Source: a virus. Taken from it: a stretch of 36,096 nucleotides of DNA. The notes under the pieces were generated by a model. It made no database searches and was not told the DNA's origin. It worked only from the letters and a program-made list of their open reading frames with translations. The position numbers and the translations under genes are program-made. The stretch lies in the IMG/VR virus record IMGVR_UViG_3300036785_000343, positions 1 to 36,096 of that record. One strand, given 5' to 3'. Shown piece after piece: positions 2,288 through 35,032 of the stretch. Position 1 is the stretch's first letter. Each line of letters opens with the position of its first letter.

Positions 2288-2539
2288 ATGAAAACGTACA
2301 GTGTCAGATCCCTTGATGAACTCGCCGAAGTGTTCGAAATGTTCGCAAAGAACGTTGAGAACTCCCCTCTACAAACCACGAAACGCACAAAGGAACTCGT
2401 GGCGATGGAAGCAGCGACATGGCGAAATGCTGCAGAGGTCATAAGGGATACCATCCTCGAAACAAACCCCTTACCGATCATAGAACTCAACGAAGGCAGC
2501 AAGAAATCTCTTGCCCGTGCCCTGAAAGGAAACCCATAA
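2288..2539 (+). CDS. Small helical hypothetical protein, 83 aa
   Basis: Read from ATG 2288, preceded by AGGAAAAGGAAAC. A frame extending upstream to 2033 would overlap the previous gene, its terminator and a promoter, and is rejected. The protein is rich in Ala, Glu, Leu and Lys, probably all-helical (for example SLDELAEVFEMFAKNVEN near the N terminus), with no membrane span and a basic C terminus. The next gene starts 1 base after the stop, so translation is probably coupled. Family and function unknown. Confidence 0.7.
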   Translation: MKTYSVRSLDELAEVFEMFAKNVENSPLQTTKRTKELVAMEAATWRNAAEVIRDTILETNPLPIIELNEGSKKSLARALKGNP

Positions 2540-2540
2540 A

Positions 2541-2720
2541 ATGGACCCCCAGGCTTGTTTGAACGACCTCTTGACCGCAGTCCACGACGGGGATTGCGAT
2601 CTCGCCAGCGACCTTCTCGACGGTTTGCTGAGTTGGTTTGCCAAGGATGGCTTCATGCCTAGTGTTGCCGTAGCACTCGACAAGGTACAGGATCGGATTA
2701 ACGAAAGGAGATGCGTGTGA
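2541..2720 (+). CDS. Small acidic hypothetical protein, 59 aa
   Basis: A 59-residue frame starts at ATG 2541, 1 base after the stop of the preceding gene, and ends in TGA at 2718-2720, overlapping the next start. It is acidic in its first half (LTAVHDGDCDLASDLLDGLL) and helical throughout, ending in a basic NERRCV. The upstream gene supplies AAAGGAAACCC as ribosome binding site. Its tight packing with both neighbours is the best evidence that it is translated. Function unknown. Confidence 0.65.
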   Translation: MDPQACLNDLLTAVHDGDCDLASDLLDGLLSWFAKDGFMPSVAVALDKVQDRINERRCV

Positions 2721-2941
2721 CATACCCTGTTATACCTTGGGAAGAGGCCCTAGCCTTGCTGAAGTCGATTCAGGATGCTCTAGGAACTGACGAGACTGGG
2801 GAAAACCTAGTTGCCGTCGCCAGTGACGCCCATAGGGCAGAGCAAGAGCTAGCTGCCTTGAGAAGTAGAACACGGTCCGATCCTAATAAATTACAGAAAG
2901 GACTAAAAAACTCAAACTTCCCTCTTGCAAAAACCAGCTAG
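2717..2941 (+). CDS. Small hypothetical protein, 74 aa, GTG start
   Basis: I place the start at GTG 2717 rather than ATG 2711. AAAGGAG (2704-2710) is then 6 bases upstream, whereas it would touch the ATG. The GTG also forms a GTGA overlap with the stop of the previous gene, a common coupling signal. The 74-residue product is helical (WEEALALLKSIQDALG, then HRAEQELAALRSR) with a basic tail. The 3' end overlaps copy 5 of the promoter motif, so the last 15 or so residues may be only loosely constrained. Function unknown. Confidence 0.6.
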   Translation: MTYPVIPWEEALALLKSIQDALGTDETGENLVAVASDAHRAEQELAALRSRTRSDPNKLQKGLKNSNFPLAKTS

Positions 2942-2953
2942 ATAGACTACATT
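2925..2953 (+). promoter_or_regulatory. Repeated promoter motif, copy 5
   Basis: TTGCAA (2925-2930), 17 bases ending in GAC, TACATT (2948-2953). The -35 box lies inside the end of the preceding gene. It would give a transcript with a leader of about 150 bases ahead of the DUF932 gene at 3108. Confidence 0.58.
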
Positions 2954-2980
2954 ACAAACACAGGACGGAGACATAGGAAG

Positions 2981-3068
2981 GTGACGCAGTTTATACCCAA
3001 ACGTGAACCTACCGATACTGCGGTAGTCCCATAGACGATTGGGTATAGCCAGCGACACCGCTGATCAC
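2981..3068 (+). ncRNA. Folded 5' leader of the DUF932 gene
   Basis: A perfect 9-bp stem pairs TATACCCAA (2992-3000) with TTGGGTATA (3039-3047). It encloses a 6-bp hairpin CTACCG (3009-3014) with CGGTAG (3021-3026), loop ATACTG. Flanking GTG..CAG (2981-2989) and CTG..CAC (3061-3068) can extend the outer stem imperfectly. No riboswitch family is recognised. It could be a cis-regulatory leader or a separate small RNA. Confidence 0.5.
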
Positions 3069-3107
3069 AACGAGCCAATATGTAGCTCAAAACGATAGGA
3101 GTAACAC

Positions 3108-4121
3108 ATGGACAATATTGATATGACCAATAATCGGGCTAATATGGCCTTTTTGGGGGACCGGAATAACATCTGGCACCGCATGGGCGAAGAGATGAAA
3201 GAGGGTATGACCACTAAGGAGTGGGCAAAGTCCTCCGGTTTGACCTGGACCGCCGAAAAGGTTCCTGCTTTCGCCCAGCTTGACGATCGGTTCCCTAATG
3301 CGGGACTGGTTAAGGCAGATGGCCGGTATTTCCTCTGTCGGAATGACAATGGTTATATCTTGTCACCTACCACGGTATCGAATGTCTATCAGGCCGTTCA
3401 GCCTGCGGACCTTCTCGCTTGGTTCGATCGGTACGTCTCAGTTGACAGTCGTTTCAAGCTTGACGTTTGTGGTAGCCTGAAAAAGGGCGAGATCATCTGG
3501 GCCACGGCAGTTTATCAGGAACCGGTGGAAGTAGCTGGAGATAAGCATGTCATGCGGCTTCTTATGACTACCACGTTTGACGGTAGTGGTGCTACGATCA
3601 ATAAGGGCTGTACAGAACGAGTGGTCTGCAATAATACTCTGGACGTGGCTCTTGGTGAAAAGCATACCCCCGTCATTCGGACTCGGCATAATACCAAGTT
3701 CGATCCGGCAAAGGTTGCCAAGGAATTGGCAGCTGTTGCACAGGGCTTCACCTACTATAAGAAAATGGGCGATGCTCTAGCTCAGAACGAAATGGCTAAG
3801 GAAGAGGTTTCCAGGTTCTTCAAAAGTCTCTTGGACATTCCTTTTGAAGCCAAACCCGATGATGTATCTACACGTAAGCTCAATCAGTTCGAAGCTTTGA
3901 GTGATGCTTACCGAACTAGCCGGGAGGAAGGTGCCACAGGTGCATGGGCTTCACTTCAGGCGGTGACCCGGTACTGCGATCATGATCGATCGGTCAAGGC
4001 GGTTGGTAGTGATGCTACTGAGTCTAGGTTTCTTAGTAGCCAATTCGGTTCGGGCCACCTACTAAAAGCAAAGGCGGTTGGCCTTCTCATGCCAAGGATA
4101 AAGGATAAGATCCTGGCCTGA
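3108..4121 (+). CDS. DUF932 family protein
   Basis: A 337-residue protein of the DUF932 / phage-plasmid-like family (TIGR03299-like), widespread in large phages and plasmids and of unknown biochemistry. Features seen are the N-terminal NIWHRMGEEMKEGMTTKEW, the central ATAVYQEP and MRLLMTTTFDGSGATINKG, ERVVCNNTLDVAL, and the C-terminal Thr/Ala-rich helix with WASLQAVTRYCDHDRSVK. The length is normal for the family. TAGGAGTAACAC gives a strong ribosome binding site before ATG 3108. It is preceded by a folded leader and its own promoter copy, so it seems to be separately and perhaps post-transcriptionally controlled. No intrinsic terminator follows. Confidence 0.92.
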   Translation: MDNIDMTNNRANMAFLGDRNNIWHRMGEEMKEGMTTKEWAKSSGLTWTAEKVPAFAQLDDRFPNAGLVKADGRYFLCRNDNGYILSPTTVSNVYQAVQPADLLAWFDRYVSVDSRFKLDVCGSLKKGEIIWATAVYQEPVEVAGDKHVMRLLMTTTFDGSGATINKGCTERVVCNNTLDVALGEKHTPVIRTRHNTKFDPAKVAKELAAVAQGFTYYKKMGDALAQNEMAKEEVSRFFKSLLDIPFEAKPDDVSTRKLNQFEALSDAYRTSREEGATGAWASLQAVTRYCDHDRSVKAVGSDATESRFLSSQFGSGHLLKAKAVGLLMPRIKDKILA

Positions 4122-4161: not shown

Positions 4162-4184
4162 ATCTACACTAGGGAGGCGTTCAC

Positions 4185-16159: not shown

Positions 16160-17236
16160 TCAATCCCACAAGAGCACAGAACCGGGATCACTGATCTCTT
16201 TAATAAAATCTACACACGCGAGTTCTGGCCGATTGACTTCAGTCCACACAGAAAACTTAATTCCAGCATTCTCAGACCAAATCTCACCCGCTCTTAATTT
16301 AAACTGAATCTTCAGATCCCTTAAATAACACTCTGGTTTAACTTCTATTAGTTCTTTTGATCCATCAGTATACTCTACCAAAATGTCTGGATAATATCCT
16401 CTTTCCACTCCTTCTGAATCTAAATAAGAAATTCCAAATGGCTCCGGCTTATAAGACTTCACTAAAGGATTACTGTCCAAGCAAATATAAGCTCTTAACT
16501 CCCAAGATGACCTATAAAAACATCTACCAGATTTGGTAGACTCATGCCAACCTTGTTTAACATGACTAAATGTCGTCGGTAATTTACCTTCAAGAATTTG
16601 CTTAGTAATAGCTCTTGAATGAGTCTCTTGTCTCTTCTTATAGTCCTCAGGCGACATATTTTCCCAGTACCTCTTTTGCCCTTCCGACTTATTTTTAATC
16701 CAACTATTATATTGTTCATCAGTCAAATTATCATATCTAACTTTCGTAGTGATTTTAGCTCCACAGGAGCCAGAACAATACTTCCTATATCCTTTTGATG
16801 TCTTCTCAAAAGAGACTTCATTCTTACAGTCAGGATTCATACAATTTCTGCTAGTACGATGTCCCTCAACTTTTCCAAATAAAAATTCGTCATAAAATCT
16901 TTTAGAACGTCCAGTAGTGGACTGAGATATCTTTCTCTTAGTCTCGTCAGATACCTTGAATCCAATCCTAGCCTCAGATTGCTTCTTTCTAGTTTCTTCA
17001 CTAACTACAGTACCGATCTTAGCCTCGGACATCTTTTTCTTACTTTCTTCAGAGTGGATACGTCCAGTCAGAGACTTAGATATCTTTTTCTTAGTTTCTT
17101 CAGAATGAAGAATTCCAGTCCTGGCTATCTTTCTACGTAATTTATATCTTTCTGAAGTTGTGTAGCAAAGCTCACAACAAAATTCTTCATTAAAAGGAGA
17201 AACTATATAACCTTTACACCGTTTACACTGTTCCAT
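16160..17236 (-). CDS. Homing endonuclease with NUMOD3 repeats and PD-(D/E)xK-like domain
   Basis: A 358-residue protein read from ATG 17236, preceded by AGAGGAGGTAAG. A longer frame would overlap the gp25-like gene. Residues 1-35 carry a CxxC...CxxC zinc motif (CKRC, CELC). Four NUMOD3-type repeats follow (SEETKKKISKSLTGR and variants), a DNA-binding module of GIY-YIG and HNH homing enzymes. A second Cys cluster near 130-160 is followed by a charged linker. The C-terminal 120 residues contain RGYYPDILVEYTDGSKELIE then VK, a D...ExK arrangement like PD-(D/E)xK nucleases (TnsA/Vsr-like). No GIY-YIG or HNH motif was found. It interrupts the baseplate operon between gp25 and J, typical of a selfish free-standing homing gene. 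Confidence 0.82.
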   Translation of the reverse strand: MEQCKRCKGYIVSPFNEEFCCELCYTTSERYKLRRKIARTGILHSEETKKKISKSLTGRIHSEESKKKMSEAKIGTVVSEETRKKQSEARIGFKVSDETKRKISQSTTGRSKRFYDEFLFGKVEGHRTSRNCMNPDCKNEVSFEKTSKGYRKYCSGSCGAKITTKVRYDNLTDEQYNSWIKNKSEGQKRYWENMSPEDYKKRQETHSRAITKQILEGKLPTTFSHVKQGWHESTKSGRCFYRSSWELRAYICLDSNPLVKSYKPEPFGISYLDSEGVERGYYPDILVEYTDGSKELIEVKPECYLRDLKIQFKLRAGEIWSENAGIKFSVWTEVNRPELACVDFIKEISDPGSVLLWD

Positions 17237-17267
17237 TCTTACCTCCTCTAGTGTTACACCCAGTCTA

Positions 17268-17753
17268 TCACTGGCCGATCTGAGTTGGCAAGGCCCTAAC
17301 ATACAATGCAATCTGATTGTTAGAGAGTATCGTGTAAATAAGATAAGCTACATACTGATGTATATCAGGATACGGAACTACCACCGAGTTCTGGAAATCC
17401 AGTCTTACCCTAGGCTCCCAAGCCTGAATTGCTTCAATGAATAGGATCTTCAGCTTGTTTGCTGTAAGATCATTCATAGGTTCGAACAAAATAGACTTGA
17501 TCTGAGAACCAAAACCCCTATTAAACATGAAGCTCTTTTTCGGACACTCCAGGATATTATCAATATCCATATTCAAAGCATCAACACTAGTAATAACCAG
17601 CTGGTTAGAGGTCTGCTGAAACCTTCTGTTTAGATCATTGAAGTAAAATAACTGGGGAGGAAGTGCTGTCCTTGGTAGCCCCGGCCTTACGGCTCCGACT
17701 GTAAATGGCTTAGCTAGGTTAGATGGAGGTACCGGTACAACCCCATTTGTCAT
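17268..17753 (-). CDS. Baseplate wedge protein gp25-like (GPW/gp25 family)
   Basis: A 161-residue protein that fits T4 gp25 / P2 gpW, the small wedge subunit that contacts sheath and hub. Diagnostic parts are FMFNRGFGSQIKSILFEPMN (residues about 74-93) and the conserved EPRV in IQAWEPRVRLDF (about 110-121). The first 50 residues are an extra N-terminal extension with Pro-rich sequence. It begins 4 bases after the spike gene and is followed by the inserted homing endonuclease, beyond which the J gene resumes the standard gp25-J-I order. Confidence 0.88.
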   Translation of the reverse strand: MTNGVVPVPPSNLAKPFTVGAVRPGLPRTALPPQLFYFNDLNRRFQQTSNQLVITSVDALNMDIDNILECPKKSFMFNRGFGSQIKSILFEPMNDLTANKLKILFIEAIQAWEPRVRLDFQNSVVVPYPDIHQYVAYLIYTILSNNQIALYVRALPTQIGQ

Positions 17754-19924: not shown

Positions 19925-20317
19925 TTAGCTCCTGATAAGTGTTCCAGGAAGCAGGGAGACCAGTCTCCCTTGCTGAGAACGAGCTATGATTTGCTGATAG
20001 AAGTTCGTTATGTCAGTAGTACTTGGTAAAAACAAGTTCATACCTGGAATGATCTCAGTGTCAGGCGTAACCATTTCATTAGCTATCGATATAACCCACC
20101 AAAAGTCATGAGTTCCATAATTATCCCAAGAGATTAAATCAGGAACTCCATCTAGCGATGCATCGATTCTTTGGACTGCACCATTAGAATTTCTTAGATA
20201 ATATGGAAAGTCTGTCCATAAAAATGTGTACGGGTCAAGTATATCTTTTCCATTAGGATCAGTAACCACTTTAAAGAAATTATCTATAGAGTATGGTCTG
20301 CTTACGTTAGTAGCCAT
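19925..20317 (-). CDS. LysM/gp53-like baseplate protein
   Basis: A 130-residue protein. The segment NYGTHDFWWVISIANEMVTP followed by EIIPGMNLFLPS matches the pattern of T4 gp53 and the LysM-like tail proteins (P2 gpX, Afp7): a YG...WW.IA.aN...dp..i..G..L.iP core. In contractile tails these proteins tie the hub to the wedge ring. AGATG follows the previous stop by 2 bases. The hub gene's apparent ATT start begins 4 bases after its stop, so the two are translated together. Confidence 0.82.
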   Translation of the reverse strand: MATNVSRPYSIDNFFKVVTDPNGKDILDPYTFLWTDFPYYLRNSNGAVQRIDASLDGVPDLISWDNYGTHDFWWVISIANEMVTPDTEIIPGMNLFLPSTTDITNFYQQIIARSQQGRLVSLLPGTLIRS

Positions 20318-20319
20318 CT

Positions 20320-21021
20320 TTAAAATCCAATAGTATTAGGACGGTTAAAGGCTGGATCGGTACCTGTATAAGTACCAAGATATTCATCCATATTCTCAGC
20401 AAGCGGTGAATAGAGTGTCCTAAATTGTATAGTAGTAACTGCTTCCATAGGAAAACCATTCTTATCTAATTTTGCTTTGAACTCTACATTTTGCATCAGT
20501 GAAATAAATACATTTGTTAACCTAAAATAATTACCAATATATACATTAATAAGATCTTGTGCTCCTTCAGCAGGACCAGTTGTAGTTTCACCTTTTCCAA
20601 AAAGAGAAGGTACCGGACCAGGAGCAATCAAAAATGAATCAGAATTCGAATTATTTCTTCTAGGCAAAGTCATCTTCATCAATCTCTTAATTGGTTCAAT
20701 TACTTCTATCTTCGAATCTTGGGTAGCGAAAAAATGTAAAGGCAATACTAATTCCAACGGTTCCGATCCTCTCCACTCTTGAGCCGTCTGTTTTTTCGAG
20801 ACAAGAGTGTGGCCCAATACAGCAGAAGTAAACCAATTAAACGCTGCTCCTAATTCAGTAGAAACTATAGACCCCCAATTCGAGCGTATCGAGATTTGTA
20901 TGCTGTCAGGCAACCACGCTTGAACATGCCCATGTATACTTGAGCTTATAATCACTATATAGTATTTGCTCTGTCCAGATGGATGAGTTACACCAGCGGT
21001 ATCAGTAGGTGGATCTGCCAT
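20320..21021 (-). CDS. Tail/baseplate junction protein candidate
   Basis: A 233-residue protein. The core QEWRGSEPLELVLPLHFFAT, then IEVIEPIKRLMKMTLP and a PGP motif, recalls tail proteins in which W.G.sp..l.l.l.f.A is followed by helices and a proline. Its place between tape-measure-like and LysM/gp53-like genes is where Mu gp43, P2 gpU or T4 gp48/gp54 functions occur, so a role in capping or joining the tube to the hub is likely but inferred from order. Its ATG overlaps the preceding stop as TAATG. Confidence 0.55.
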   Translation of the reverse strand: MADPPTDTAGVTHPSGQSKYYIVIISSSIHGHVQAWLPDSIQISIRSNWGSIVSTELGAAFNWFTSAVLGHTLVSKKQTAQEWRGSEPLELVLPLHFFATQDSKIEVIEPIKRLMKMTLPRRNNSNSDSFLIAPGPVPSLFGKGETTTGPAEGAQDLINVYIGNYFRLTNVFISLMQNVEFKAKLDKNGFPMEAVTTIQFRTLYSPLAENMDEYLGTYTGTDPAFNRPNTIGF

Positions 21022-24000
21022 TATGATAAGACCTGTGTTCCAGCAGCAGTCGCTAAGGCAATGTCTTTTGGATGCATGCTGTGAGGCTGTATTTGATGAT
21101 GTGGTTCTCTACGATGTCCCGGCGTTGGAGCTTTAGCTTTCTTCTTATGTTGTTGGCGAGCGGCCTGTCCTCTCAACATCTCAATTCCATGATGCATGTC
21201 AGACGCTCTAGCCCCTCCACCTTTAACTCCTAGATTAGTAGGCCTAGCTCTAGGCATTGGAACGTCAGGATGCATTTCTTCTTTAGACTTTTCAAGACCT
21301 TCCTCAATATCTTCATGAGTCACAGGCTCAGACTGATCATGGTGTATAGGAGTATATTGATGATGACTAAGCTGACGAAGACTCCGATCAATATGCCTAC
21401 GAGCTACGAACGTAGATTCACCAGGCCTTTCCCTCGGAAGAGGCATGGATTGATCAGGACTTGTTACACCTTCGATAACACCAGATTTAGCTCCACTAAT
21501 AACACGACTACGTTCACCAGTCATAAACCCAGGTTCATGGCGAATATGGTGTTGTTCCTCGTCTTTAGTCGTTTCACCTCTATGCAATTGAGCACTTTTC
21601 ATAAATCCAGGTTCACCATGAGTATGACCAAGTAGGTTCTTAGTGTATGGAAGATTAGCTTTACGAACTTCACCCTTTAACCACTCTTTGTAGTAAGGTT
21701 CCATCTCCTCTTCTCTTGGATCTCTTCCAAGCTTCTTACGAAGCATCTCTTGAGTTGGACCGTAATCCCAACCTGGGTCTTTCCAGACTGGACGACGAAG
21801 AGTTTCAAGATCTCTCCGCATTTCTGGAGAAGGGTTATGCTTGTCAAATATAGGACCAGCACCTTTACCAGCAGCTTGAGGAAGACTTTCACCTTGATCT
21901 TGATCAGGATGAAGTGCTCTCATAAACCCAGGTTCATGTCGAATATGACGTTGTTCTCGTAGATTCTGTCCATCAATAATACCAGATTTGGCCCCAGTTA
22001 TAGTTAGGTCTTCAGGTTGAGTAAACCCCTGATGATGCATATGAGAACGTTGCCTCTGAGATGCACCTGGACTAGGTGTATCACCCGGGCCTCCAGTATC
22101 ACCTGTACCTCCTGAAAGAGGACTAAGAACATCTCCAATAGGACGCTGGGGAGGCTGATCAGCAGGCTGAGTGCCTGGAGCCTGAGGAGGACCTGCTACA
22201 GCAATAGGACTAACACCTTTTACCGGATAATCTCCTCGACGATAGCCCTTTCCCATAGGCTTACTCTGTGCTATGTCCCAACCGTGAGGGATAGCTCTCT
22301 CTCCTTGCATAGTACCAGTAGCAGTTTTTCCTGTACCCCATCCTCCAGCTGCCATACCAGAATGAGCAAAATCACCATGCATTAAATCCGCTACTCCGTA
22401 ACCTCCAGGTCCATGTAAGAAATAACCTCCCCACCTATACTGTCCTGCTAGCTGAGGATTTTTCTCTTGCAATACAGAACGAATATCCTGATGAAGAGTC
22501 TCATACATTCGATAATTTTCAGGACTTTGATAGTTCGGGATCATCTTTCCATCAGGACCTATGATTCTAAAATCAACGGCAGCCCCAGTTGTATGGGCGG
22601 CACCACCTTGTCTTCCAACAGGACGCTGACCTGAATAAGCTTCTACACGATATCCTTCTGGAAGATGCTTAGAGGCTTCTCTAGCGGCATCAATAAGCAC
22701 TTGTCTTCTAGAATCACCCCCAAGCTGATAATTACCAACAGTTTTAAATCTTTCAGTTCCAGGAGAAGTTATTCTAGCATCAGTTTTTCCTGGTGGTTGG
22801 ACAGCAGGTTGAGTATCGCCAGTTCCAGCGGCAGCAGCAGGTTGACTACCAGGTGCCTGTGTAGCTGACACTGTGCCCGGAGCCGTAGGTTTTCCAGCTT
22901 GAGGTCGACTTCCTGGCGGATGCAACGCCCTATCACGAGCCACTCGCCATTCCGCATCAGTAAGATGATAAGGCTCCGACACCCTGGTTTCATACCGTGA
23001 CATGGCCTTAAGAAAGGCTAGCCCCTGGTCTGTTTTCAGAAACTCCGGAGTGATTTTTGTGTTGGTCGGAATTCCGGTCATCTTCGATATGATCGGCGCG
23101 TAACTTTCTCCGTGGCCAACCCATTGTTTGATCAAATCCTGCATAGTCTTGCCGGAATATAGGGGGCTCTCCGCCATTTTACGGATTGCTGCAGCCGCTC
23201 CAGCCATCTTGCTCGGGAAAATCGATGGCGTATCATATTGCGTAATCTTTCGACCCTCTAGGCCGCCCTCCCCCTTAGCGTACTTATCATACCACATATT
23301 AAACGGATTATTAAAGCGCTCACCAGCCGCACGAGATTTATCTCTAAGCTCAGCTTCGGTTGGATAGGTCCCACTAAAAGCTGGAGGTCCAACAGTACCA
23401 CCTCCTGTCCCTGGTACAGCAGTTGGGTTTGGTCCAGTCGGAGGACTTGTCCCCAAACTAGGAGCCTGAGTAAATCCTCCAGGTGTTCCTCCTATGTTAG
23501 TTGGTGGCGCAAACAGACCTGGATCAGGAGCACCTGTATTAGGTACTAATTTAGGAGTAGTTATCTTACTAGGATCAAACGGACCTTGTGTCGGAGTTGC
23601 TTGGGGAGAGAATAGTCCAGGGTCAGGCCGTGTAGTACTTCCAGGAGCAAACGCAGGATTTGGTCTAGTCGGAGCAATACGTTCTGTAAATGGTTGCGAC
23701 GATGGGGTAAATGCAGTAGTAGATGGACCTAAAGGACCTGTACCTGGAGGAGAGAGTGTCGGGTAAGTCGGACCTGATGGAGTTGTAGTTGTATCAGGTG
23801 TAGTCGTAGTCGTATCAGGAGGACCACCACCACTACCACCTCTCCTGCCCCCTCCGCCTCCACCAGGACGGCTTGGCATCCCTGCACCAAACCCACTCCC
23901 AGGAAATCCAGGTTGAGTACCTAACCCACCTGCGCCTATACCACCTCCAACTCCAGATAAATTACCAAGAGATGCTAACCCAAACCCACTACCACCGCCA

Positions 24001-25289
24001 CTGACTCCAATATTACCTCCTTGAAGTGCCTTCAGTATATCAGATAGTAACTGAGTTTGTTTCTCCATCAAACCTACAACAATATCACCTTTCTGTTGAT
24101 CAACTGGAATAAATCTTCTATCTTCAATATTTTCAGAAACTGGGAAATCTCGTGTCATGTCTCGTGTTATATCTCCAAAAAAGTTCTGTCTCGTATCAAA
24201 AGACCCCCTTGCTGAAGGATTTCGACGCTGCATTGGGGCGTTTGGTATAGAATCTATACCAGCTTCTTTACCAAGACTTCTTTTAGGCTGGGCTGGGGTT
24301 ATCTTAGGAATAACCCTAGGATTGGGTGTTCCTAACTTATCCAACTTCTCTTGTGTAGATGGCGATGTTCCTCCAAATATATTAGTAAATGGATCATACC
24401 AATGAGATCCAGAACCCAGCCCAGATTTAGGATCAAACCCTAAACGATGGTGTTCAAGCCACGGTGATTGACTAAGAGTCTTCTTCTGTTCTGGTGTAAG
24501 TCCTGGTAAATCTAAAAGTTTTCTACCAGGATGTTCCTTATCATACTCCTCACGAACTCTTTTTTCTCTTGGGTCACCAAATCGAGTTTTAAGATAGTCT
24601 CCAATCGCATACGCTATCCCAGCAGCTGAGGTTAGGAGTGCTGCCTCAACAGCTGCGGCTAACATCCTACCAATAATAGCTGATTCAATACCACTACCAG
24701 CCGACATAGATCCACGTTGTGGTACAGTGTGTGGAGAAAAATACTGACGAATACTTTTCATCAACTCAAAACCTTGTTTGAATAAAATAGCAGTTTCTTT
24801 AATCGCGTGGTAATTCTCTTGCATTGCCTTGACTACTAACCCAAGTCCAGGGTCAATAGCAGTAGCACCTGCCGTAGTACCGATACCTATAGCACCTTTA
24901 CCTGAAAAAGCTTGATCTCGTACTCCGGTTCCAAATTTCTTAAGGTGTGCAGTTAATTCCTTTAGCTCACCTATATTCTTAAGAGCTACAAGTGCTTCAG
25001 CGAGATTTCTTTGAAGCTCTGGAGATATCCCTTTCTGAGAAGGATCTCTTGCTGCTTGTTTGAAATCCTCTCGTAAAGTAGTCAAAATCTGAACTACTTT
25101 CTCGGTATTAGCTTTATCGCCCTTTAATAAATCAACAACCTTACTTAACTCGTTGTTGTTGTTTTGTGACAACTTGTCAATAGCTTTAGTCAGTTCACTT
25201 ATAGCACCTGCTGAAATGTCTGAAGTAGACATCCCTTGAGCAGGAGATGCAGGACCAGACATAAGAAACTGGCGAGACAGTTCAGCCAT
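21021..25289 (-). CDS. Giant tape-measure-like protein with two peptidoglycan hydrolase domains
   Basis: A 1422-residue protein paralogous to the 759-residue neighbour. Residues 1-190 are the shared helical domain, about 208-230 a hydrophobic span, and 420-620 Gly/Pro/Thr-rich low complexity. About 645-790 is a muramidase-like domain (FNNPFNMW...W...Y) seen in tail and hub proteins. About 835-985 is an M15-type peptidase: AAHTTGAAVDF supplies the H...D zinc ligands and LMHGDF the second His. The last 330 residues are His-rich with repeated HEPGFM and GAKSG motifs. I favour tail length determination plus wall digestion at entry. ATG overlaps the preceding stop (TAATG). Confidence 0.75.
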   Translation of the reverse strand: MAELSRQFLMSGPASPAQGMSTSDISAGAISELTKAIDKLSQNNNNELSKVVDLLKGDKANTEKVVQILTTLREDFKQAARDPSQKGISPELQRNLAEALVALKNIGELKELTAHLKKFGTGVRDQAFSGKGAIGIGTTAGATAIDPGLGLVVKAMQENYHAIKETAILFKQGFELMKSIRQYFSPHTVPQRGSMSAGSGIESAIIGRMLAAAVEAALLTSAAGIAYAIGDYLKTRFGDPREKRVREEYDKEHPGRKLLDLPGLTPEQKKTLSQSPWLEHHRLGFDPKSGLGSGSHWYDPFTNIFGGTSPSTQEKLDKLGTPNPRVIPKITPAQPKRSLGKEAGIDSIPNAPMQRRNPSARGSFDTRQNFFGDITRDMTRDFPVSENIEDRRFIPVDQQKGDIVVGLMEKQTQLLSDILKALQGGNIGVSGGGSGFGLASLGNLSGVGGGIGAGGLGTQPGFPGSGFGAGMPSRPGGGGGGRRGGSGGGPPDTTTTTPDTTTTPSGPTYPTLSPPGTGPLGPSTTAFTPSSQPFTERIAPTRPNPAFAPGSTTRPDPGLFSPQATPTQGPFDPSKITTPKLVPNTGAPDPGLFAPPTNIGGTPGGFTQAPSLGTSPPTGPNPTAVPGTGGGTVGPPAFSGTYPTEAELRDKSRAAGERFNNPFNMWYDKYAKGEGGLEGRKITQYDTPSIFPSKMAGAAAAIRKMAESPLYSGKTMQDLIKQWVGHGESYAPIISKMTGIPTNTKITPEFLKTDQGLAFLKAMSRYETRVSEPYHLTDAEWRVARDRALHPPGSRPQAGKPTAPGTVSATQAPGSQPAAAAGTGDTQPAVQPPGKTDARITSPGTERFKTVGNYQLGGDSRRQVLIDAAREASKHLPEGYRVEAYSGQRPVGRQGGAAHTTGAAVDFRIIGPDGKMIPNYQSPENYRMYETLHQDIRSVLQEKNPQLAGQYRWGGYFLHGPGGYGVADLMHGDFAHSGMAAGGWGTGKTATGTMQGERAIPHGWDIAQSKPMGKGYRRGDYPVKGVSPIAVAGPPQAPGTQPADQPPQRPIGDVLSPLSGGTGDTGGPGDTPSPGASQRQRSHMHHQGFTQPEDLTITGAKSGIIDGQNLREQRHIRHEPGFMRALHPDQDQGESLPQAAGKGAGPIFDKHNPSPEMRRDLETLRRPVWKDPGWDYGPTQEMLRKKLGRDPREEEMEPYYKEWLKGEVRKANLPYTKNLLGHTHGEPGFMKSAQLHRGETTKDEEQHHIRHEPGFMTGERSRVISGAKSGVIEGVTSPDQSMPLPRERPGESTFVARRHIDRSLRQLSHHQYTPIHHDQSEPVTHEDIEEGLEKSKEEMHPDVPMPRARPTNLGVKGGGARASDMHHGIEMLRGQAARQQHKKKAKAPTPGHRREPHHQIQPHSMHPKDIALATAAGTQVLS

Positions 25290-27568
25290 TAGCTAAATCC
25301 CTGACCTCCTAATGTCGCCATACCAACGTCAGAGAAGATTGGACCAGAAGGTGACTGGGATGGACTTATCATTGTAGGATGGGGCAGTGCCTGTGGTCTC
25401 TCTTCCTCATGGTCTTCAGTTTGAATACGATGTGCTGTATCATCTAACATCGCAATTCCATGATGCATATCAGATGCAGTAGGCATATCACCTCTAATAT
25501 CTAGACTAGCACGTGGTCCAGGAATATTGATATTCCCACCTTGCGGGGCTTGTGGTTCTCTTCTGCCCATATTAGGTTGAGGCCCAAGATAGGGAGAAGG
25601 CAAAGGAGACGGAGAAGATGACTGAGCAGCAACTGCAGAGTCTGGAGGAGAAACAGGTATTACATCTTTCCATTTTGGTGCTTTGCCCTTTCCAGGGTCC
25701 GGTACACGAGGCCATGGCATATCCTGATTTACACGGGATACGTTCTCCTGGTCTGTTCCGTATATCGCTCTTCGATAAGTTTCTTCAGTATATGGTAATG
25801 TACTTGATCCTCCTTCGTGCCCACTCTGAGCCGTTTGAAACGCATACTGAGTATCTTTATTAGTTAAATCCAATTTAGTATCAGGGCTTATACCTAAGTG
25901 CTTACTTAAGTTAGCGATGTATTCAGGCTGACCCCTATCTGCCCACCCACCAGTAATTATTTTACGTATAGTATCCTTTCCTTCTGAACTGTATTTTAGA
26001 AGAAGCTTAGTTTGAGCTTGAATACCTTCTTCAGGAGTATTATACCGAACATAACGCCCACCTTCACCAGGACTTCTAACATCCCCCGTAACTCCTCCCA
26101 TATAAGGATCACCCTGTTGAGCTTGCTTCCTCATATCACTTATAGCTCCCGGATTATTCATTCTAATAGAAGCATGTATATAACCTGGACCTTCAACTTG
26201 TTTTCTAAGAACTTCCTGATTGACATTAGGATTACCAATTGGAGATACATACTCAGAAGGCACAGTTTCTCGAAAACCCTTAGATTCAGCAAAGCTACCT
26301 GAAGCTCCAGCCCCACCAGCAGCACCTCCTTTTCCCTTGACAGGAGTAACAGTAACAGGTGAATCTTTTGCTTGAACCACGGAAGGTTTAGTTACAACTT
26401 CGGACCTATCACGAGAACGAACATGTTCAGGTCCTCTCTCACCAACAACAGCCTTCTTATGAGGAGGAACATTCCCACCTTCAGCTAAGAATTTAACACC
26501 ACCACCAACTACGATATTGCCTTTTTGAAGTGTTCGCAATATCTCAGCTAACAATTCAGTCTGCATCTGCATAAACTTTATAACTGTATCAGCTTTCTGT
26601 TGATCAGCCGAGACTGCGTCAAACCCTCCAAGAAGATGCACACCTCCTTCTATAGGACCAGTCGAAACAGAAGAGTTAGATTGCGATGCAGGAACAGTAT
26701 CGGAAGGAACTGTGTTTGGATTAGTGTCAAATGATGGAGTTGTCCTACTTAGTTTTTTCAATTCTTCTTCGTCGTCAGCAACAGTCGACTTACCAAAAAT
26801 TTTATTATAAAGCCAAAACAGACCCGCACCGATTAAGGCTCCGCCCAACCCAACAACCAATCCCATACCTAAAGCTTTACCAATACTAGGAAGTTTTTTC
26901 AATAGGGCTGTAGCTAAAGCAGTTTTCATAATAGCTTCATCAATGCCTTCACATCCTGCGTTACCGCCAACTATCGATCCACTAGCCGACATAAAACCAC
27001 GCTGCTTTACAGTGTGTGGAGAAAAGAACCGATGAATACCTTTAAAAACACTAATAGTTAGATGGAATCCTTCCTTAAGAACGTGGAAAGTTTCTTTGAT
27101 AGCGTGAGCGTTTTCTTGTGCTGCCTTTACTAGTAATCCAAGTCCAGGATCAATAGCAGTAGCACCTACTGTTACACCAGTACCTACAACCCCTTTACCT
27201 GTTAGAGCCTGATTTCCTGCACCAGTTACAAATTTCTTAAGATGTGCATTTAACTCCTTTAGTTCACCTATGCCTTTGAGAGCTACGAGTGCTTCAGCAA
27301 GCTGTCTTTGAAGTTCTGGGGTTATACCTTTCTGGGAAGGATCTTTTGCTGCTTGTATAAAATCTTGTCGTAAGGTAGTCAAGATCGCAACTACCTTCTC
27401 GGTATTAACCTTATCACCCTTCAATAAGTCAACGACCTTACTCAATTCATTCGTATTATTGTTTGACAATTTATCAATAGCCTTAGTCAACTCTGCTATA
27501 GCACCTGATGCAATATCTCCCATAGGGATAGGGCCAGCCGTAAGAAACTGGCGGGAGAGTTCAGCCAT
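25289..27568 (-). CDS. Tape-measure-like protein with muramidase-like domain
   Basis: A 759-residue protein. Residues 1-195 are helical and nearly match the downstream paralogue (for example NELSKVVDLLKGDK and SPHTVKQRG). About 233-255 is a membrane-like helix (GLVVGLGGALIGAGLFWLY). About 455-610 resembles the muramidase-like domain of phage tail lysins: IRMNNPGAIS, RYVRYNTPEEGIQAQ, then TIRKIITGGWADRG and a later HEGG. The C terminus shares SDMHHGIAML with the paralogue. It follows the gp26-like gene, the normal place of a tape measure. Which of the two paralogues measures the tail cannot be decided here. The ribosome binding site is weak. Confidence 0.7.
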   Translation of the reverse strand: MAELSRQFLTAGPIPMGDIASGAIAELTKAIDKLSNNNTNELSKVVDLLKGDKVNTEKVVAILTTLRQDFIQAAKDPSQKGITPELQRQLAEALVALKGIGELKELNAHLKKFVTGAGNQALTGKGVVGTGVTVGATAIDPGLGLLVKAAQENAHAIKETFHVLKEGFHLTISVFKGIHRFFSPHTVKQRGFMSASGSIVGGNAGCEGIDEAIMKTALATALLKKLPSIGKALGMGLVVGLGGALIGAGLFWLYNKIFGKSTVADDEEELKKLSRTTPSFDTNPNTVPSDTVPASQSNSSVSTGPIEGGVHLLGGFDAVSADQQKADTVIKFMQMQTELLAEILRTLQKGNIVVGGGVKFLAEGGNVPPHKKAVVGERGPEHVRSRDRSEVVTKPSVVQAKDSPVTVTPVKGKGGAAGGAGASGSFAESKGFRETVPSEYVSPIGNPNVNQEVLRKQVEGPGYIHASIRMNNPGAISDMRKQAQQGDPYMGGVTGDVRSPGEGGRYVRYNTPEEGIQAQTKLLLKYSSEGKDTIRKIITGGWADRGQPEYIANLSKHLGISPDTKLDLTNKDTQYAFQTAQSGHEGGSSTLPYTEETYRRAIYGTDQENVSRVNQDMPWPRVPDPGKGKAPKWKDVIPVSPPDSAVAAQSSSPSPLPSPYLGPQPNMGRREPQAPQGGNINIPGPRASLDIRGDMPTASDMHHGIAMLDDTAHRIQTEDHEEERPQALPHPTMISPSQSPSGPIFSDVGMATLGGQGFS

Positions 27569-27642: not shown

Positions 27643-28169
27643 ATGACCAAAGATCTGGACGGTGAGATATGGAAAGATATCATAGGCTGGCCCTTTCACC
27701 AAGTCTCAAATAAGGGTCGGGTTCGAGCACTACCTGGTGCTTTCGTAAGAAACAAACAGATTAATATAAGATCGAACTCAGAAAACAGTGGCGTGATCGG
27801 TCCAACAATGGGTACATGATAGTCAGCCAAGGAAAACAAAAACATCCGATCCATATACTTGTATTAAGTACATTTTATGGTCCATGTCCCCCTAGAAAAG
27901 AATGCTGCCGTCATTTAAATGGTGATTCAACTGATAATAGATGGCCTGAGAATCTTGAATGGGGGACTCAAAAAGAAAATGTAGATGATAAAGTTAGGCA
28001 TGGAGTCCACAATAAGAAGGAACGCAATGGTAGAGCTAAACTTACACAAACTGACATCAATAACATTAGAACACGTCCGTACCATTATGGTATCTATTCG
28101 GAACTAGCAAGAGAATACAATATATCAGATACCCAAATTCATAGAATACGCAATAAACTTCAATGGTAA
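27643..28169 (+). pseudogene. Frameshifted NUMOD4/HNH homing endonuclease
   Basis: ATG 27643 has AGGAGG 8 bases upstream. Frame 1 reads GEIWKDIIGWPFHQVSNKGR, a clear NUMOD4 motif, and then stops near 27820. A second frame, open from about 27765, continues RSNNGYMIVSQGKQKHPIHI, then CCRHLNGDSTDNRWPENLEW, an HNH core of the C.H.dg...NN...NL.W type. It ends with a helix-turn-helix-like segment (SELAREYNISDTQIHRIR). The two halves join if one base is missing (or two are extra) near 27757-27770, so the gene is probably inactivated, unless a sequencing error or frameshifting restores it. It lies antisense within the tail operon, its stop abutting the stop of the gp26-like gene. Confidence 0.8.
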
Positions 28170-29576: not shown

Positions 29577-30323
29577 TTAGAGACTTAGTCTCTGAACGTT
29601 ATTAAACTTGAAGGCTGCACCACCAGGAGTTATCCTATTCTGCTGTGCTTTTATAAGATTCTGAGAAGCCCCTTCTTCTGTTGCTGAATTAGTAAGAACT
29701 CGATTCACTGCAAATGATTGAGCAATCGCTGTTCTACCTGAAGGTTCATAGTCCAGACGCAATGGCGCCATAGTAGTGGGGAAACACTGTTGATAAACAA
29801 TCCTATATGTAGTTTCATTCCCATAGCTTTGAAGGATAACTGTTATATCTTGTAGATAACCATCCTGTCCTTCAGGATAATTATAAGTACCATCGTCTAA
29901 ACCTGTATTGATATTATAGTTTCGTATTTTCTTCTTCCAAGCTAGTATGTAGTCTATTGGAGTCATGAACTCATCACCGTAAAATAGTAAACGTAATTCA
30001 GTCGCATCAAAAAAGTCTGCTTGGAAATGATGTCTACCGCCGATAGGATGTGCAACTGGTGACGTATTATCAAAACCAGGTTCTATAGACTGAACAATAG
30101 GAACTCTCACAGCACCAAACTTAGGCAGTTGGACTGTAAACTTCCAGACCCGATGTGGTTCTGGAACCGGCTCTCCATTGAAGGTGTATAAGGTTATTAT
30201 ACCGTCAGTACCAGGAGTACCGGAAAAGTTATTGGCAAAATTTGGAGATGGTGTTGGAGTCGGAGTAGAAACTATTACGTCAGAAGCAGCTACATTAGGC
30301 ATAGGAGGTAATGTATTAGCCAT
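29577..30323 (-). CDS. Second tail tube-like structural protein
   Basis: A 248-residue protein with a gp19/tube-like core: ELRLLFYGDEFMTPIDYILA then WKKKIRN, a QDITVILQSYGNETTYRIVY strand pair, and CFPT...PLRLDYEPSGR. Contractile systems often carry such tube paralogues (for example Afp5 beside Afp1) as tube initiators or adaptors on the hub. The first 45 residues are Pro/Thr-rich and likely flexible. AAGGA lies 9 bases before the ATG, and the gap to the tail tube gene is only 12 bases. The tube-adaptor role is inferred from fold resemblance and order. Confidence 0.7.
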   Translation of the reverse strand: MANTLPPMPNVAASDVIVSTPTPTPSPNFANNFSGTPGTDGIITLYTFNGEPVPEPHRVWKFTVQLPKFGAVRVPIVQSIEPGFDNTSPVAHPIGGRHHFQADFFDATELRLLFYGDEFMTPIDYILAWKKKIRNYNINTGLDDGTYNYPEGQDGYLQDITVILQSYGNETTYRIVYQQCFPTTMAPLRLDYEPSGRTAIAQSFAVNRVLTNSATEEGASQNLIKAQQNRITPGGAAFKFNNVQRLSL

Positions 30324-30335
30324 GATGTATAATCC

Positions 30336-31140
30336 TTACCCAGTCTGCAACCCTTGTCCAGAAATAGCGTCCATATCACAATAGTCAAAACTCCAGGTGA
30401 TATCCGGAGCTACAGCTGTACTTTGAGCCATCTGAAGAGCGATGGCAGGGTTGGCAATAGGAAATAGTCCATACAGGTAGTTGGCAACTATAGGATTGTT
30501 CGGGTTGTCGTACATCTGGATCTTGGCAGTAGATTGGATAGTAGTCTTGTTAGCACCTACCCCTGTAATCCAGTTGTATGCTGTCTTCATCCATGAGGCG
30601 ATTGCAATGCGTATTTCCGAGTTGGTACCCTCGACCAACGTCGTTCTCCAGGTGTGGCTAAACCTGACTCGTCCACCATAGACAAGAGTAAAGCCAGCCA
30701 AATCTATTGGCACTTGATCAAGAGCAATTCCAGGTAATTCAGTCGCAGTACATCGAAGACTGAGTAACTGGGAGGAGATGCCACCTCGTGCTGGACTAAT
30801 CGTCATTTGGAATTGGTACCTGATCTTCGCTAGAGTTCGCTAGGCTCTAACCGTTCCTCAGAGGAACTGCTCATAGTTACCTATGAGAGGAGACTATATC
30901 ATCAACCACTTGGGTTGTGTGGTACTTCGGACCGCTTGGTCCTACTCCCTTTCGGGATAGTCGTTACACGTTCCCTTTTTACAGGGCTCCGCTCGGTATT
31001 GTCCTAGCTTACGCGACTAGGAGTTCCACCGAATTCTCCACATTGTCATTAGCGAATTGCTTCACTACGGGGCTAAAAATTCAACCCTTTAACGGATCCA
31101 CCAATCCTTGCACGTCATTGATAGAAACTGGACCTGCCAT
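30336..31140 (-). CDS. Tail tube protein, gene split by a group I intron
   Basis: Exon 1 is 31140-31084 (19 codons, MAGPVSINDVQGLVDPLKG). Exon 2 is 30827-30336 (163 codons, beginning KIRYQFQMTISPARGG). Joined they give about 182 residues, near T4 gp19 (163). The joint restores the usual tube N terminus: a short lead, then RYxFxM and the LRCTATELPG loop. Exon 1 alone ends at TGA directly after GGT. Read alone, exon 2 would start only at an internal ATG, 30806, and lose the first strand. GGAG precedes the start, inside the endonuclease gene upstream, and the TAATG overlap couples the two. The product forms the inner tube of the contractile tail. Confidence 0.88.
30828..31083 (-). ncRNA. Group I intron (IA2-like, T4 nrdB type)
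   Basis: A 256-base intron with the full core on the minus strand. P1 pairs exon GGGT with GCCC, giving a U-G at the splice site. P2 is TAGTGAA/TTCGCTA with a GCAA loop. P3 is TGTGG/CCACA. P5 is CCTAG/CTAGG. P6 is CCCT/AGGG. P7 is GACTA (30962-30958) with TAGTC (30896-30892). P7.1 and P7.2 are CCC-GAAA-GGG and GGACC-AAGC-GGTCC. P8 is CAACC/GGTTG. P9 is CTCATA/TATGAG. The intron ends in G at 30828, in phase 0 with exon 2. The P7.1/P7.2 pair marks the IA group. The intron holds no ORF of its own. Confidence 0.92.
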
Positions 31141-31718
31141 TATCGTACTCCTCTCTGTTCTACCGTTTGACATGGTTTGGTGTCCATGTGACGCTTGCCC
31201 CAAGGACCTCCAATAGTACGACCACAAGAATCACACGTGTACCACTGCTGACTCAAATGGTTTCCATTAGCAATGGCTGCCTTAACCCGATTTCTTGCCA
31301 TTTTTGCAAGTTCCTCTGAACTCTTAATTTGGCTATTATGAGTACCTTTAGCCAACTGGCTATAGTTGATCTGTCTCATTATCTCCGGGTTCTTACTTGC
31401 ATGATTAGGACCAGCAAGAGCGGCCTCTCGCCCTCTAGCAGCACCCTCTAGATTATTATCCCGCCACTCCTCCCACCTAAAATTCCACCTGTTGTTCTCG
31501 TGATCAAAGACATAACCTTTCGAATGATCATATCGACCAACAGACGGACATTCCATAGCCGGTGGGACTGGCCCGATAACTTCCGTCCAAAGATAGAAGT
31601 TTTCTTCTTCAAGCTCAAAATCACAGCCTACGTCTTTACCTCTCTGTATCATATCGCAAAAACGTTGGTACAAAGGATGAGACGAGTATCCAGAATACTT
31701 TCCTGTTTTCCTTGACAT
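31140..31718 (-). CDS. HNH-like homing endonuclease ending at the tail tube start codon
   Basis: A 192-residue protein related to the one at 34444-35010. The shared core is SVGRYDHSKGYVF...NRWNFRW (residues about 60-83), like the xSxGRIDHxxGY...NxRW motif of a group of phage HNH endonucleases, with NUMOD3-like segments (SSEELAKMARNRVKAAIANG) after it. A C-terminal CDSCG...H...C zinc finger follows. AAGGGGAAACC precedes the ATG. Its stop overlaps the tube ATG (TAATG), so it lies just outside exon 1 and about 60 bases from the intron, a layout that suggests it mobilises the intron. That is inference. Confidence 0.78.
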   Translation of the reverse strand: MSRKTGKYSGYSSHPLYQRFCDMIQRGKDVGCDFELEEENFYLWTEVIGPVPPAMECPSVGRYDHSKGYVFDHENNRWNFRWEEWRDNNLEGAARGREAALAGPNHASKNPEIMRQINYSQLAKGTHNSQIKSSEELAKMARNRVKAAIANGNHLSQQWYTCDSCGRTIGGPWGKRHMDTKPCQTVEQRGVR

Positions 31719-31746: not shown

Positions 31747-34158
31747 TTATTGCTGTGCTATAGAAAGATTGAAGCCACGTTGTATTACCTGAAAGTTCGC
31801 ACCAGTCGCTGTTATAATGTTTTGCAACTGAATGAATTCCGCATCCTTCTCTGGTTGTAGATACACATCCACATTCAATTGGTTCGCATCTATGATCTGT
31901 GGAGTATTGTTACTTTCATTACAGACCGTCTTGAATGTATAGACGCCGTTTTGAGCTTGCACTGTAGTAAGATATTGATTGATAGCAGTTTCAATATCCA
32001 ACCGAGTATATTGATTGTTCAACTCAAAGAGCTTGTACTTCAGAAACTGTTTTGCCGCACGCTCAAAAGTGATAATCAACCGCCTGACATTGATCCTATC
32101 CAAAGCAGAAGGCTTAGATTGCTGTGTCTTCTGACCAAAAATGACGATACCGTCCCCTGGAGAGAAGATGATCGGGTTGATGTTGACGGGATTACCGTAC
32201 AGCGCTTCGATCTCCCCCTGCTGATCATAACGAACGGTCACGTCCATAGGCGGTAGTGTCTCTGACCGCAATACCGCTCTATTGTAACCAGCAGGGGCAT
32301 ACCAAGGGTAAGTCACCCAGTCGGTACGGGCAAAGACCTGAGCAGCAAAACCGGATGGAGGAATTGGTAGATTTGGAATATCGTTATAACTATCGTAACA
32401 CTTTATCCAAGGCGAGTACAAAGCCGTGAAGCTGGACTCAATATTCTGGTAGTTCAGTCTCCAATCAGACGCATAAGTAATAGGAGATATCTCAGTACGG
32501 TCGAAAGGTATGTCAAAGATAGCAAAGCAGTCACGACGTTTCTCAGCAAGAGCTTGGATGGACTCTTGCACCGACCAGTCATCGTCAGAGACGTAGCCGC
32601 CATTTATCAGAATATTGATATCAACAACCGCTTGATTGGCATATAGCTGCCAAGCCTGGATGATATCGCCAGACGTAATAGCAGTACCATCGTCCCCTTG
32701 AGTAAAGTACACAGGATAAGTGGTAAAGGCAGGCATTACTGTATTGGGGATATCTACGTTATCTAGGACTCTTATATAGTTTGAGAGACCGTTAATCCTG
32801 GTCTCCAAATACATATTATTTCCATAACCATCTTTCTGGTTAGGTATTCGAGAGACTTCCCAGACCTCTTTGGTAATGTGTACTCCACTCGACGTTTCTT
32901 GAATGACGAGTCTGAAAGCGGTAGGGTCCCAGGCAACAGGCTGAACTTGGACACTAATATTATTGCCCCATTTGCCAGGATTTTCTGCGTAGATCATAAA
33001 GCAAGTATGAGTAGTGTCCGAACCGTTGAATTTAGCAGAGATAGGAACACCTGTCCCCGGAGCTACAGCAAAGGTAACTTCAAGAGCACCAACCTCAGGC
33101 TCCAAGATACCAGTTGTGATCCCCTGGCCAGTAACATTCCCTAAGCTATCTACTACGACAGGAATAACTGTCGTGCCTATATGAATCTCCTGAAGGGTGA
33201 CGATCGGTGTAGGAGACAATGTTGCAGCAAAAGTTGGATTACTATTGTCTCCAGTTCCAATCACCTGTGTCATATTGACTGGGAAGGCATCTGGTGCCTC
33301 ACTGAGAACGCCTTCACCTAATGGTGTAGTAGGATTGTCAGAGACATAGGTAGCCGAAATGGCTTGATGGTTAGGAGGAGGCGTATTAAAGGTAACGTTA
33401 ATCACACCAGAAACATAATTGATAGTGCCACTAGTAATACCAACACCGAAAATGTTACTATCGCCAGAAACTGACATATACCTAGCAGTGATGACGGTAT
33501 TAGACACAGGAGGCGATGCAAGCTGGATAGTAAGACTACCCGTTTGCTTATTGAGGAACCCGGAGGTTATTCCAACACCCGTGACATTGCCAAGAGAGTC
33601 GACTGTAACATTGATCTGAGTATTACCATTCATAATAGCAAATAAAGTACTGATAGGCGCACCAGACAAGAAACTGGTAAACGAAGACGTAGATCCGTCA
33701 CCTAGTCCAAGCTGCTGTTCCTTATAAACCTGAACGGGCACGTCTCCAGAGCCAAAGTTAAGGCTCGTAAGCGACACAAGAGGAACCATAGGCAATATAC
33801 CAGCAAAAATTCTGCTAGTACCATTCGCTGTAGAAAACTGGTTAATAACAGTTTCAGTAAGTCCTGCCTGATTAACCAAAACACCTGCATATCGACCTTC
33901 GACACAAATCCTTGTGAAATATAACTGAGTCATTTCCTCTAGAGCACAAATACCACAGTACATCGCGTAACCATAATCCGTATTAGGCTTACCATTAATC
34001 GTAGTAATCCCACCAACATTGGTAAAAAGCGCCCTCTTGTTGACAGGACCTCGCTCTGCCTGTCCAACAATAGCTCCTACAGAAGTAGCTTGGTTTTGAA
34101 CAATTGCTGATAAGTCAACATCTCGCGCATAAACTCCTGGAGCAATATAGACGGCCAT
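31747..34158 (-). CDS. Tail sheath protein with inserted beta-repeat domain
   Basis: An 803-residue sheath, longer than T4 gp18 (659). The N terminus (MAVYIAPGVYARDVDLSAIV, then GQAERGP) and the C-terminal segment (YLQPEKDAEFIQLQNIITAT, then RGFNL) are typical of phage sheath proteins, which contract to drive the tube through the host envelope. Between about residues 145 and 380 lie two to three copies of a beta-rich unit containing VDSLGNVTGxGIT and a DxxxG strand-turn pattern (about 151-228, a partial copy at 232-273, and 301-379). This would sit on the outer face of the sheath. Its ATG has TAGGAG 8 bases upstream. Confidence 0.94.
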   Translation of the reverse strand: MAVYIAPGVYARDVDLSAIVQNQATSVGAIVGQAERGPVNKRALFTNVGGITTINGKPNTDYGYAMYCGICALEEMTQLYFTRICVEGRYAGVLVNQAGLTETVINQFSTANGTSRIFAGILPMVPLVSLTSLNFGSGDVPVQVYKEQQLGLGDGSTSSFTSFLSGAPISTLFAIMNGNTQINVTVDSLGNVTGVGITSGFLNKQTGSLTIQLASPPVSNTVITARYMSVSGDSNIFGVGITSGTINYVSGVINVTFNTPPPNHQAISATYVSDNPTTPLGEGVLSEAPDAFPVNMTQVIGTGDNSNPTFAATLSPTPIVTLQEIHIGTTVIPVVVDSLGNVTGQGITTGILEPEVGALEVTFAVAPGTGVPISAKFNGSDTTHTCFMIYAENPGKWGNNISVQVQPVAWDPTAFRLVIQETSSGVHITKEVWEVSRIPNQKDGYGNNMYLETRINGLSNYIRVLDNVDIPNTVMPAFTTYPVYFTQGDDGTAITSGDIIQAWQLYANQAVVDINILINGGYVSDDDWSVQESIQALAEKRRDCFAIFDIPFDRTEISPITYASDWRLNYQNIESSFTALYSPWIKCYDSYNDIPNLPIPPSGFAAQVFARTDWVTYPWYAPAGYNRAVLRSETLPPMDVTVRYDQQGEIEALYGNPVNINPIIFSPGDGIVIFGQKTQQSKPSALDRINVRRLIITFERAAKQFLKYKLFELNNQYTRLDIETAINQYLTTVQAQNGVYTFKTVCNESNNTPQIIDANQLNVDVYLQPEKDAEFIQLQNIITATGANFQVIQRGFNLSIAQQ

Positions 34159-34443: not shown

Positions 34444-35010
34444 CTATTGACATAGAAGATTATTACAGTGAAACTTCCACATAGGTCCTCGCTTAGCCAC
34501 GCCACACCCCGGACAAGTAGTAAACCGTTTGCTAATATGATTTAAACTTTCAATTGCAGCCTTCTGAGCTACTCCAGTCTGACACCCAGCTTTACCAAGC
34601 TGATTGATATGAGTCCCAGCTTCCAACTGAACCATAGCACTTTTGCGACCTGCACTAGCGAGATTTTCCGGGGTCATCGTCTTGAACGGAGTCGTCCTAA
34701 GCGCAGCCTCTCTACTATTGTCACTCTTTGGTTGCCATCTAAAATTCCATCTATTCATTTCTATATCATAAACATAGCCTTTCTTGTGATCATATCTACC
34801 TACAGTAGGAATTTTCATTCCAACAGGGATCGAACCTATTACTTCCAGCCACTTGTTGAATAATTCTAAACATCCAGTGAAATCACACGGTATCCCCAGC
34901 TTCTTAGCTCTCTTTAGCATACTACGGAAGTACTCATAGTAAGGATGAGTTTTATATCCATCATTCGTTATTTCTAAAGGTAGTTCGTCAAGTACTTGAT
35001 AGCTTTCCAT
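34444..35010 (-). CDS. HNH-like homing endonuclease, paralogue of 31140-31718
   Basis: A 188-residue protein read from ATG 35010, which has AAGGA 8 bases upstream. ATG 35019 is closer than usual. The core TVGRYDHKKGYVY...NRWNFRWQ...SDNSREAAL parallels the other copy, as does the C-terminal zinc finger (CPGCGVAK...H...LLC). It has NUMOD-like repeats between the two. With its twin at 31140-31718 it brackets the sheath gene, which suggests two homing events in essential tail genes. Catalytic residues cannot be fixed without an alignment. Confidence 0.75.
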   Translation of the reverse strand: MESYQVLDELPLEITNDGYKTHPYYEYFRSMLKRAKKLGIPCDFTGCLELFNKWLEVIGSIPVGMKIPTVGRYDHKKGYVYDIEMNRWNFRWQPKSDNSREAALRTTPFKTMTPENLASAGRKSAMVQLEAGTHINQLGKAGCQTGVAQKAAIESLNHISKRFTTCPGCGVAKRGPMWKFHCNNLLCQ

Positions 35011-35032
35011 AGATACCATCCTTAGTTTATAG

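Follow-up and report, generated by a model that had tools for sequence, protein, structure and literature searches.

The results of this analysis indicate that the tail tube gene in the window, i.e. the whole 36,096-nt stretch of DNA that was analysed, from an uncultured large phage, carries a splicing-competent group I intron, a reading to which we assign a probability of ca. 90%. The intron (30819..31083, minus strand) is 265 nt long and has no internal ORF, and its assignment draws on an Rfam match, covariation, empty-site alleles and the ends of homologous introns. Judged by these features, the group I intron is genuine, though of an ordinary kind.

The product of the interrupted gene matched the tail tube profiles phrog_45 (E = 2e-14) and phrog_4542 (E = 1e-8), and the matches to PDB entries were weak ones to the tail tube proteins 9ev2 and T4 gp19 (best E = 0.018). 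The gene is located downstream of the tail sheath gene (31747..34158, minus strand; phrog_23, E = 9e-71), in sheath-tube order. Exon 1 (31084..31140, minus strand) consists of ATG and 18 codons (MAGPVSINDVQGLVDPLKG), and a strong-looking ribosome site, GAGAGGAG, precedes its ATG at 31140; exon 2 (30336..30818, minus strand) extends from YQFQMTISPARGG to the stop codon and matches the tail tube profiles phrog_45 and phrog_4542. The gene directly after the tube gene (29577-30323, minus strand) encodes a second tube-like protein, which also matched phrog_45 (E = 6e-10). Elsewhere in the window, two adjacent large proteins (21021-25289 and 25289-27568, minus strand) have closely similar N-termini (MAELSRQFL...), which suggests a duplication.

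The tube locus was compared with alleles from IMG/VR (L001-L004) and with three further alleles with an intronless tube gene that were added by profile search (L012, L015 and L016). L001 is a second contig identical to the window, and an assembly error is therefore unlikely. The same intron is present in L002 (74.3 bits), whose exon 2 is 97% identical in protein; L003 and L004 (78-79%) carry the tube gene without the intron. Pattern scans of viral contigs found the intron only in the same three contigs, a sheath-based scan yielded no further contig, and bacterial and archaeal genomes, scanned for the exact pattern, contained no close copy.

The covariance model search, which the initial annotation had named as a check on its reading, was performed with the Rfam model Intron_gpI (RF00028; gathering cut-off, 50 bits) and gave a match above this threshold at 31092-30870 on the minus strand that covered the full model (75.4 bits, E = 1.4e-17). 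No second intron was found in the 36-kb window at the Rfam thresholds or in a permissive scan, and the only two sub-threshold matches were to unrelated small RNAs. The helices P1, P2, P3, P4, P5, P6a, P7, P7.1, P7.2, P8 and P9 are present together with two more hairpins; P7 is formed by GACTA/TAGTC, P7.1 by TCCC/GGGA and P7.2, which covaries, by GGACC/GGTCC. On the basis of the P7.1/P7.2 insertion between P7 and P3, the intron is assigned to the phage IA type (T4/Twort). A U.G pair occurs at the 5' splice site, where GGGU faces the guide GCCC, and the last intron base is G. The energy obtained by unconstrained folding was low (z = -3.67), and none of 200 shuffles was as low.

Covariation was evaluated on a structure drawn by hand (13 helices, 63 pairs) in three alleles, i.e. 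the window, L002 and the intron in the sheath gene of L016. All 63 drawn pairs form in all three alleles, a percentage that is flattered by the structure having been read off the same three sequences; eight pairs show two-sided compensatory changes (three in P4, two in P7.2, and one each in P5, P6a and P9), a count that is flattered less. As controls, 0 of 500 shuffles scored as high, and sliding the partners by 1-3 columns left no two-sided pairs. P1, P3, P7 and P8 are invariant in the three alleles, and covariation is thus neutral on these helices. The helices and the covariation bear out the initial annotation, which had recognised a T4-type group I intron with the core helices, P7 and P7.1/P7.2.

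At the 5' junction, which falls between GGGT and TGAA, the 19 codons are followed at once by an in-frame TGA in the unspliced RNA. The protein start encoded by these codons is the same in the intronless relatives, in agreement with the earlier claim that a 19-codon exon joins the tube ORF in frame. The initial annotation had placed the intron at 31083-30828 (256 nt), and its 5' end stands. Its 3' end, however, is 9 bases off according to the intronless alleles, the homologous intron ends and the profile score. Comparison with intronless relatives, also suggested at that stage, yielded five alleles with a precise empty site (L003, L004, L012, L015 and L016), in which LKG or FKG runs directly into YQFQM (...DPLKG followed by YQFQM...), and placed the 3' splice site after 30819, between ATCAGG and TACC, with the intron-terminal G at 30819. 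Introns in other genes of Salmonella and Pectobacterium phages match up to exactly this base (query position 4182), though the query extended into the exon. The phrog_4542 score was 35.5 bits when 265 nt were removed, 32.3 bits when 256 nt were removed and 24.7 bits for exon 2 alone. Since the two removals differ by 9 nt and are both frame-compatible, the in-frame argument could not separate them, and since P10 is weak (ca. 2 bp by eye), the 3' site rests on this comparison. The intron thus most likely spans 31083-30819 (265 nt) and not 31083-30828 (256 nt), and on this placement KIR, which the earlier boundary kept in the protein, is intron sequence. A 3' splice site at 30828 would also preserve the frame and follow a G, and a P10 could form between AAGA and the guide UUUU, but residues equivalent to KIR occur in none of the intronless relatives, the homologous introns continue to 30819 and the tube profile score is lower, which makes this site very improbable.

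Equally improbable is the alternative that splicing has been lost and that the tube protein starts from an internal ATG at 30806, which is in frame in exon 2, leaving exon 1 as a relic: exon 1 is intact, encodes residues conserved in the relatives and adds 10.8 bits to the phrog_4542 match, the strong-looking ribosome site lies before its ATG and not before the internal one, and all 63 pairs are retained, as are the terminal G and the U.G pair.

A free-standing endonuclease-like ORF of 192 aa (31140..31718, minus strand), which the initial annotation had not mentioned, abuts the tube gene, its stop codon TAA overlapping the tube ATG. It has an HNH-like N-terminal part and a zinc-finger-like Cys/His C-terminus, and weakly matched phrog_374 (HNH endonuclease, E = 0.002) and phrog_12324 (intron-like endonuclease, E = 0.06); a search against Pfam gave no HNH match. 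A 45%-identical paralogue (34444..35019, minus strand) is located upstream of the sheath gene, and two further homing-endonuclease-type ORFs lie among the virion genes, one with NUMOD3 and a TnsA-like domain (16160-17311, minus strand) and one with HNH_3 (27816-28169, plus strand). With four endonuclease-like ORFs in 36 kb, about one gene in three is expected to adjoin one by chance (a rough estimate). In L002, the sheath-tube gap is occupied by a different ORF (2439-3206), likewise abutting the tube gene, the N-terminus of which looks like GIY-YIG by eye, without a family match, and the C-terminus of which is Cys/His-rich with weak zinc-ribbon matches. The AlphaFold models of the window ORF and the L002 ORF (mean pLDDT, 48.9 and 30.0, respectively) were of too low a quality to be used in searches for similar folds. 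No endonuclease-like ORF was found directly upstream of the tube gene in any of the five intronless alleles, and the association between intron and ORF (two intron alleles vs. five intronless ones) gave p = 0.048 in Fisher's test on loci that are few and related. A baseplate-wedge-like gene, which lies ca. 10 kb off in the window (19925-20317, minus strand), separates the sheath and tube genes in L003, L004 and L012. The idea that ORF 31140-31718 replaced this gene was dropped, as L015 and L016 lack the gene at that position and have no such ORF either.

The sheath gene of the window is intronless; its homologue in L016 (IMGVR_UViG_3300036832_001373, a 147.5-kb contig) carries a sibling intron of 268 nt (1283-1550; RF00028, 79.4 bits) after codon 8, where MAVYTAPG would be joined to VYARDVDLS and the 5' exon ends with GGGT as in the window. 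The two introns are 80.5% identical, as compared to 61.7% for the tube genes and 64-70% for the sheath stretches compared. An ORF for a TnsA-like endonuclease (490-1233; PF08722, E = 4e-10) ends 25 nt before the sheath ATG. The major head protein gene of the L016 contig (phrog_138, E = 2e-19) is also interrupted, close to its 3' end, by a second intron of 72.8 bits whose RF00028 match lies at 1751-1501 on the minus strand of L025 (G007:C1:119954-120204). Its joint was placed, without an intronless relative as a check, between ...GLMSM and YDMFVNNP.... Just downstream of this intron is a convergent GIY-YIG-looking ORF (L025 831-1349, plus strand) that is 57% identical to the L002 ORF. Between the head-gene intron and the window intron, blastn aligned no more than 18 nt, and the former was therefore treated as a separate lineage. 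In each of the intron-bearing genes (tube, sheath and head), a free-standing endonuclease-like ORF lies at most ca. 115 nt from the intron.

Group I introns splice by a two-step guanosine pathway. The fold and its covariation, the exact empty sites, the frame, and the position of the ORF beside the tube gene and its absence beside intronless alleles were observed, whereas the splicing, endonuclease activity, cut site and joint mobility described below are inferred. The 265-nt ribozyme intron would splice itself from the tube mRNA, most likely by the above pathway, and the joining of codon 19 (GGT) to TAC would give an uninterrupted tube protein of 179 residues. Because the intron has no ORF, its mobility would need outside help. 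The product of 31140-31718 would most likely cut the tube/sheath junction in intronless alleles of co-infecting relatives, and during repair the intron would be copied along with the endonuclease gene (collaborative homing). The layout for this is present, i.e. an ORF-less intron and an adjacent endonuclease-like ORF that are both absent from the empty alleles, in a small sample and with a weak HEG assignment. We favour this homing step, with the odds tilted slightly towards it.

The main competitor, to which we give an appreciable but less than even chance, is that the group I intron is immobile and inherited vertically and that the adjacent ORFs are unrelated HEGs favouring late-gene junctions. 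HEG-like ORFs are common in the window, so that chance adjacency is a live rival; those at 27816-28169, 16160-17311 and 34444-35019 sit at junctions without introns. Besides, the window and L002 are so close in their exon 2 proteins that they could share one inherited insertion. However, the neighbouring ORFs of these two alleles differ in type while the intron is the same, the five intronless alleles have no HEG-like ORF directly upstream, and L016 carries the sibling intron in another gene. Vertical inheritance also sits poorly with the nucleotide identity between the window and L002, which is higher in the intron (94.7%) and in exon 1 (55/57) than in exon 2 (ca. 86%; 13.8% of sites differ). 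The difference between exon 1 and exon 2 gave p = 0.03 in this pair, and no other allele pair showed a significant excess in exon 1. The higher identity of the intron and exon 1 fits co-conversion and is modest evidence for it.

The occurrence of different endonuclease types next to one and the same intron is also compatible with turnover of HEGs. A broader and rather doubtful proposal is that one small intron family jumped between the neighbouring sheath and tube genes, needing only a match of GGGU to the guide, and was moved by whichever endonuclease flanked it (HNH-like, GIY-YIG-like or TnsA-like). If true, this would be intron spread with swappable helpers whose targets are the structural genes of greatest abundance and not DNA-metabolism genes. 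The occurrence of the same intron family in two genes with different endonuclease-like neighbours provides natural material for tests of ectopic movement and collaborative homing. A 2025 survey of Bastillevirinae asks what makes DNA-metabolism genes the preferred hosts of phage introns (PMC11878797), a question on which the virion-gene introns described here bear. A T4-type tail tube gene and, via a relative, sheath and head genes are added to the few virion genes that are on record as hosts of group I introns. For the sheath-gene intron, no claim to be the first is made, the open-licence literature having been searched in part.

In collaborative homing as outlined in two reports, a free-standing endonuclease cuts the insertion site of the intron, and the intron and the endonuclease gene are copied together (PMC3984707, PMC10448857). 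The cases given there, cyanophage S-PM2 psbA/F-CphI, T3-like phages and the ICP1 terminase, resemble the window in that the interrupted gene has an ORF-less intron and is flanked by a gene for a free-standing endonuclease. In the founding cases, the endonuclease target and the intron site were demonstrated to converge; in the window such convergence is a prediction, and the host is a tail tube gene. The ICP1 terminase intron has an adjacent T5orf172 HEG, and HEG turnover was offered as an alternative origin (PMC10448857). In named phages, the top blastn relatives include the introns of Seunavirus and Certrevirus (SSE121, GEC_vB_MG, phiTE and CB7), which are ca. 74% identical over the 3' half and end at the same base; unlike the ORF-less intron in the tube gene, they sit in DNA-metabolism genes (DNA polymerase in GEC_vB_MG) and carry HNH genes.

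Introns in tail and capsid genes of mycobacteriophages have been published, and that of BAKA/Optimus is likewise a 265-bp virion-gene intron without an endonuclease, preceded by U, ending with G and accompanied by empty-site relatives (PMC3706429). It differs in that its host is a minor tail gene of a siphovirus, splicing was demonstrated by RT-PCR and the available part of that report mentions no adjacent HEG. A parallel in location is the Staphylococcus phage Twort, whose orf142, known for exon skipping, is stated to encode a tail tube protein (PMC11878797, 2025, NAR). Three RF00028 matches lie immediately past the sheath gene of Twort, the tube assignment being that of the paper; in Twort, as in the window, group I introns thus follow the sheath gene, in a gene that the paper identifies as tail tube. 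Twort has three introns with skipping of exons, and a gene annotated close by codes for an intron-encoded nuclease, whereas the window has one small intron without an ORF. The initial annotation had called a tail tube gene a less usual intron host, which is a fair description, but given Twort orf142 the window is not the first such case. With the introns of Twort orf142 and the mycobacteriophages known, the intron in the window is thus not new in kind, and it is its host gene that is less usual.
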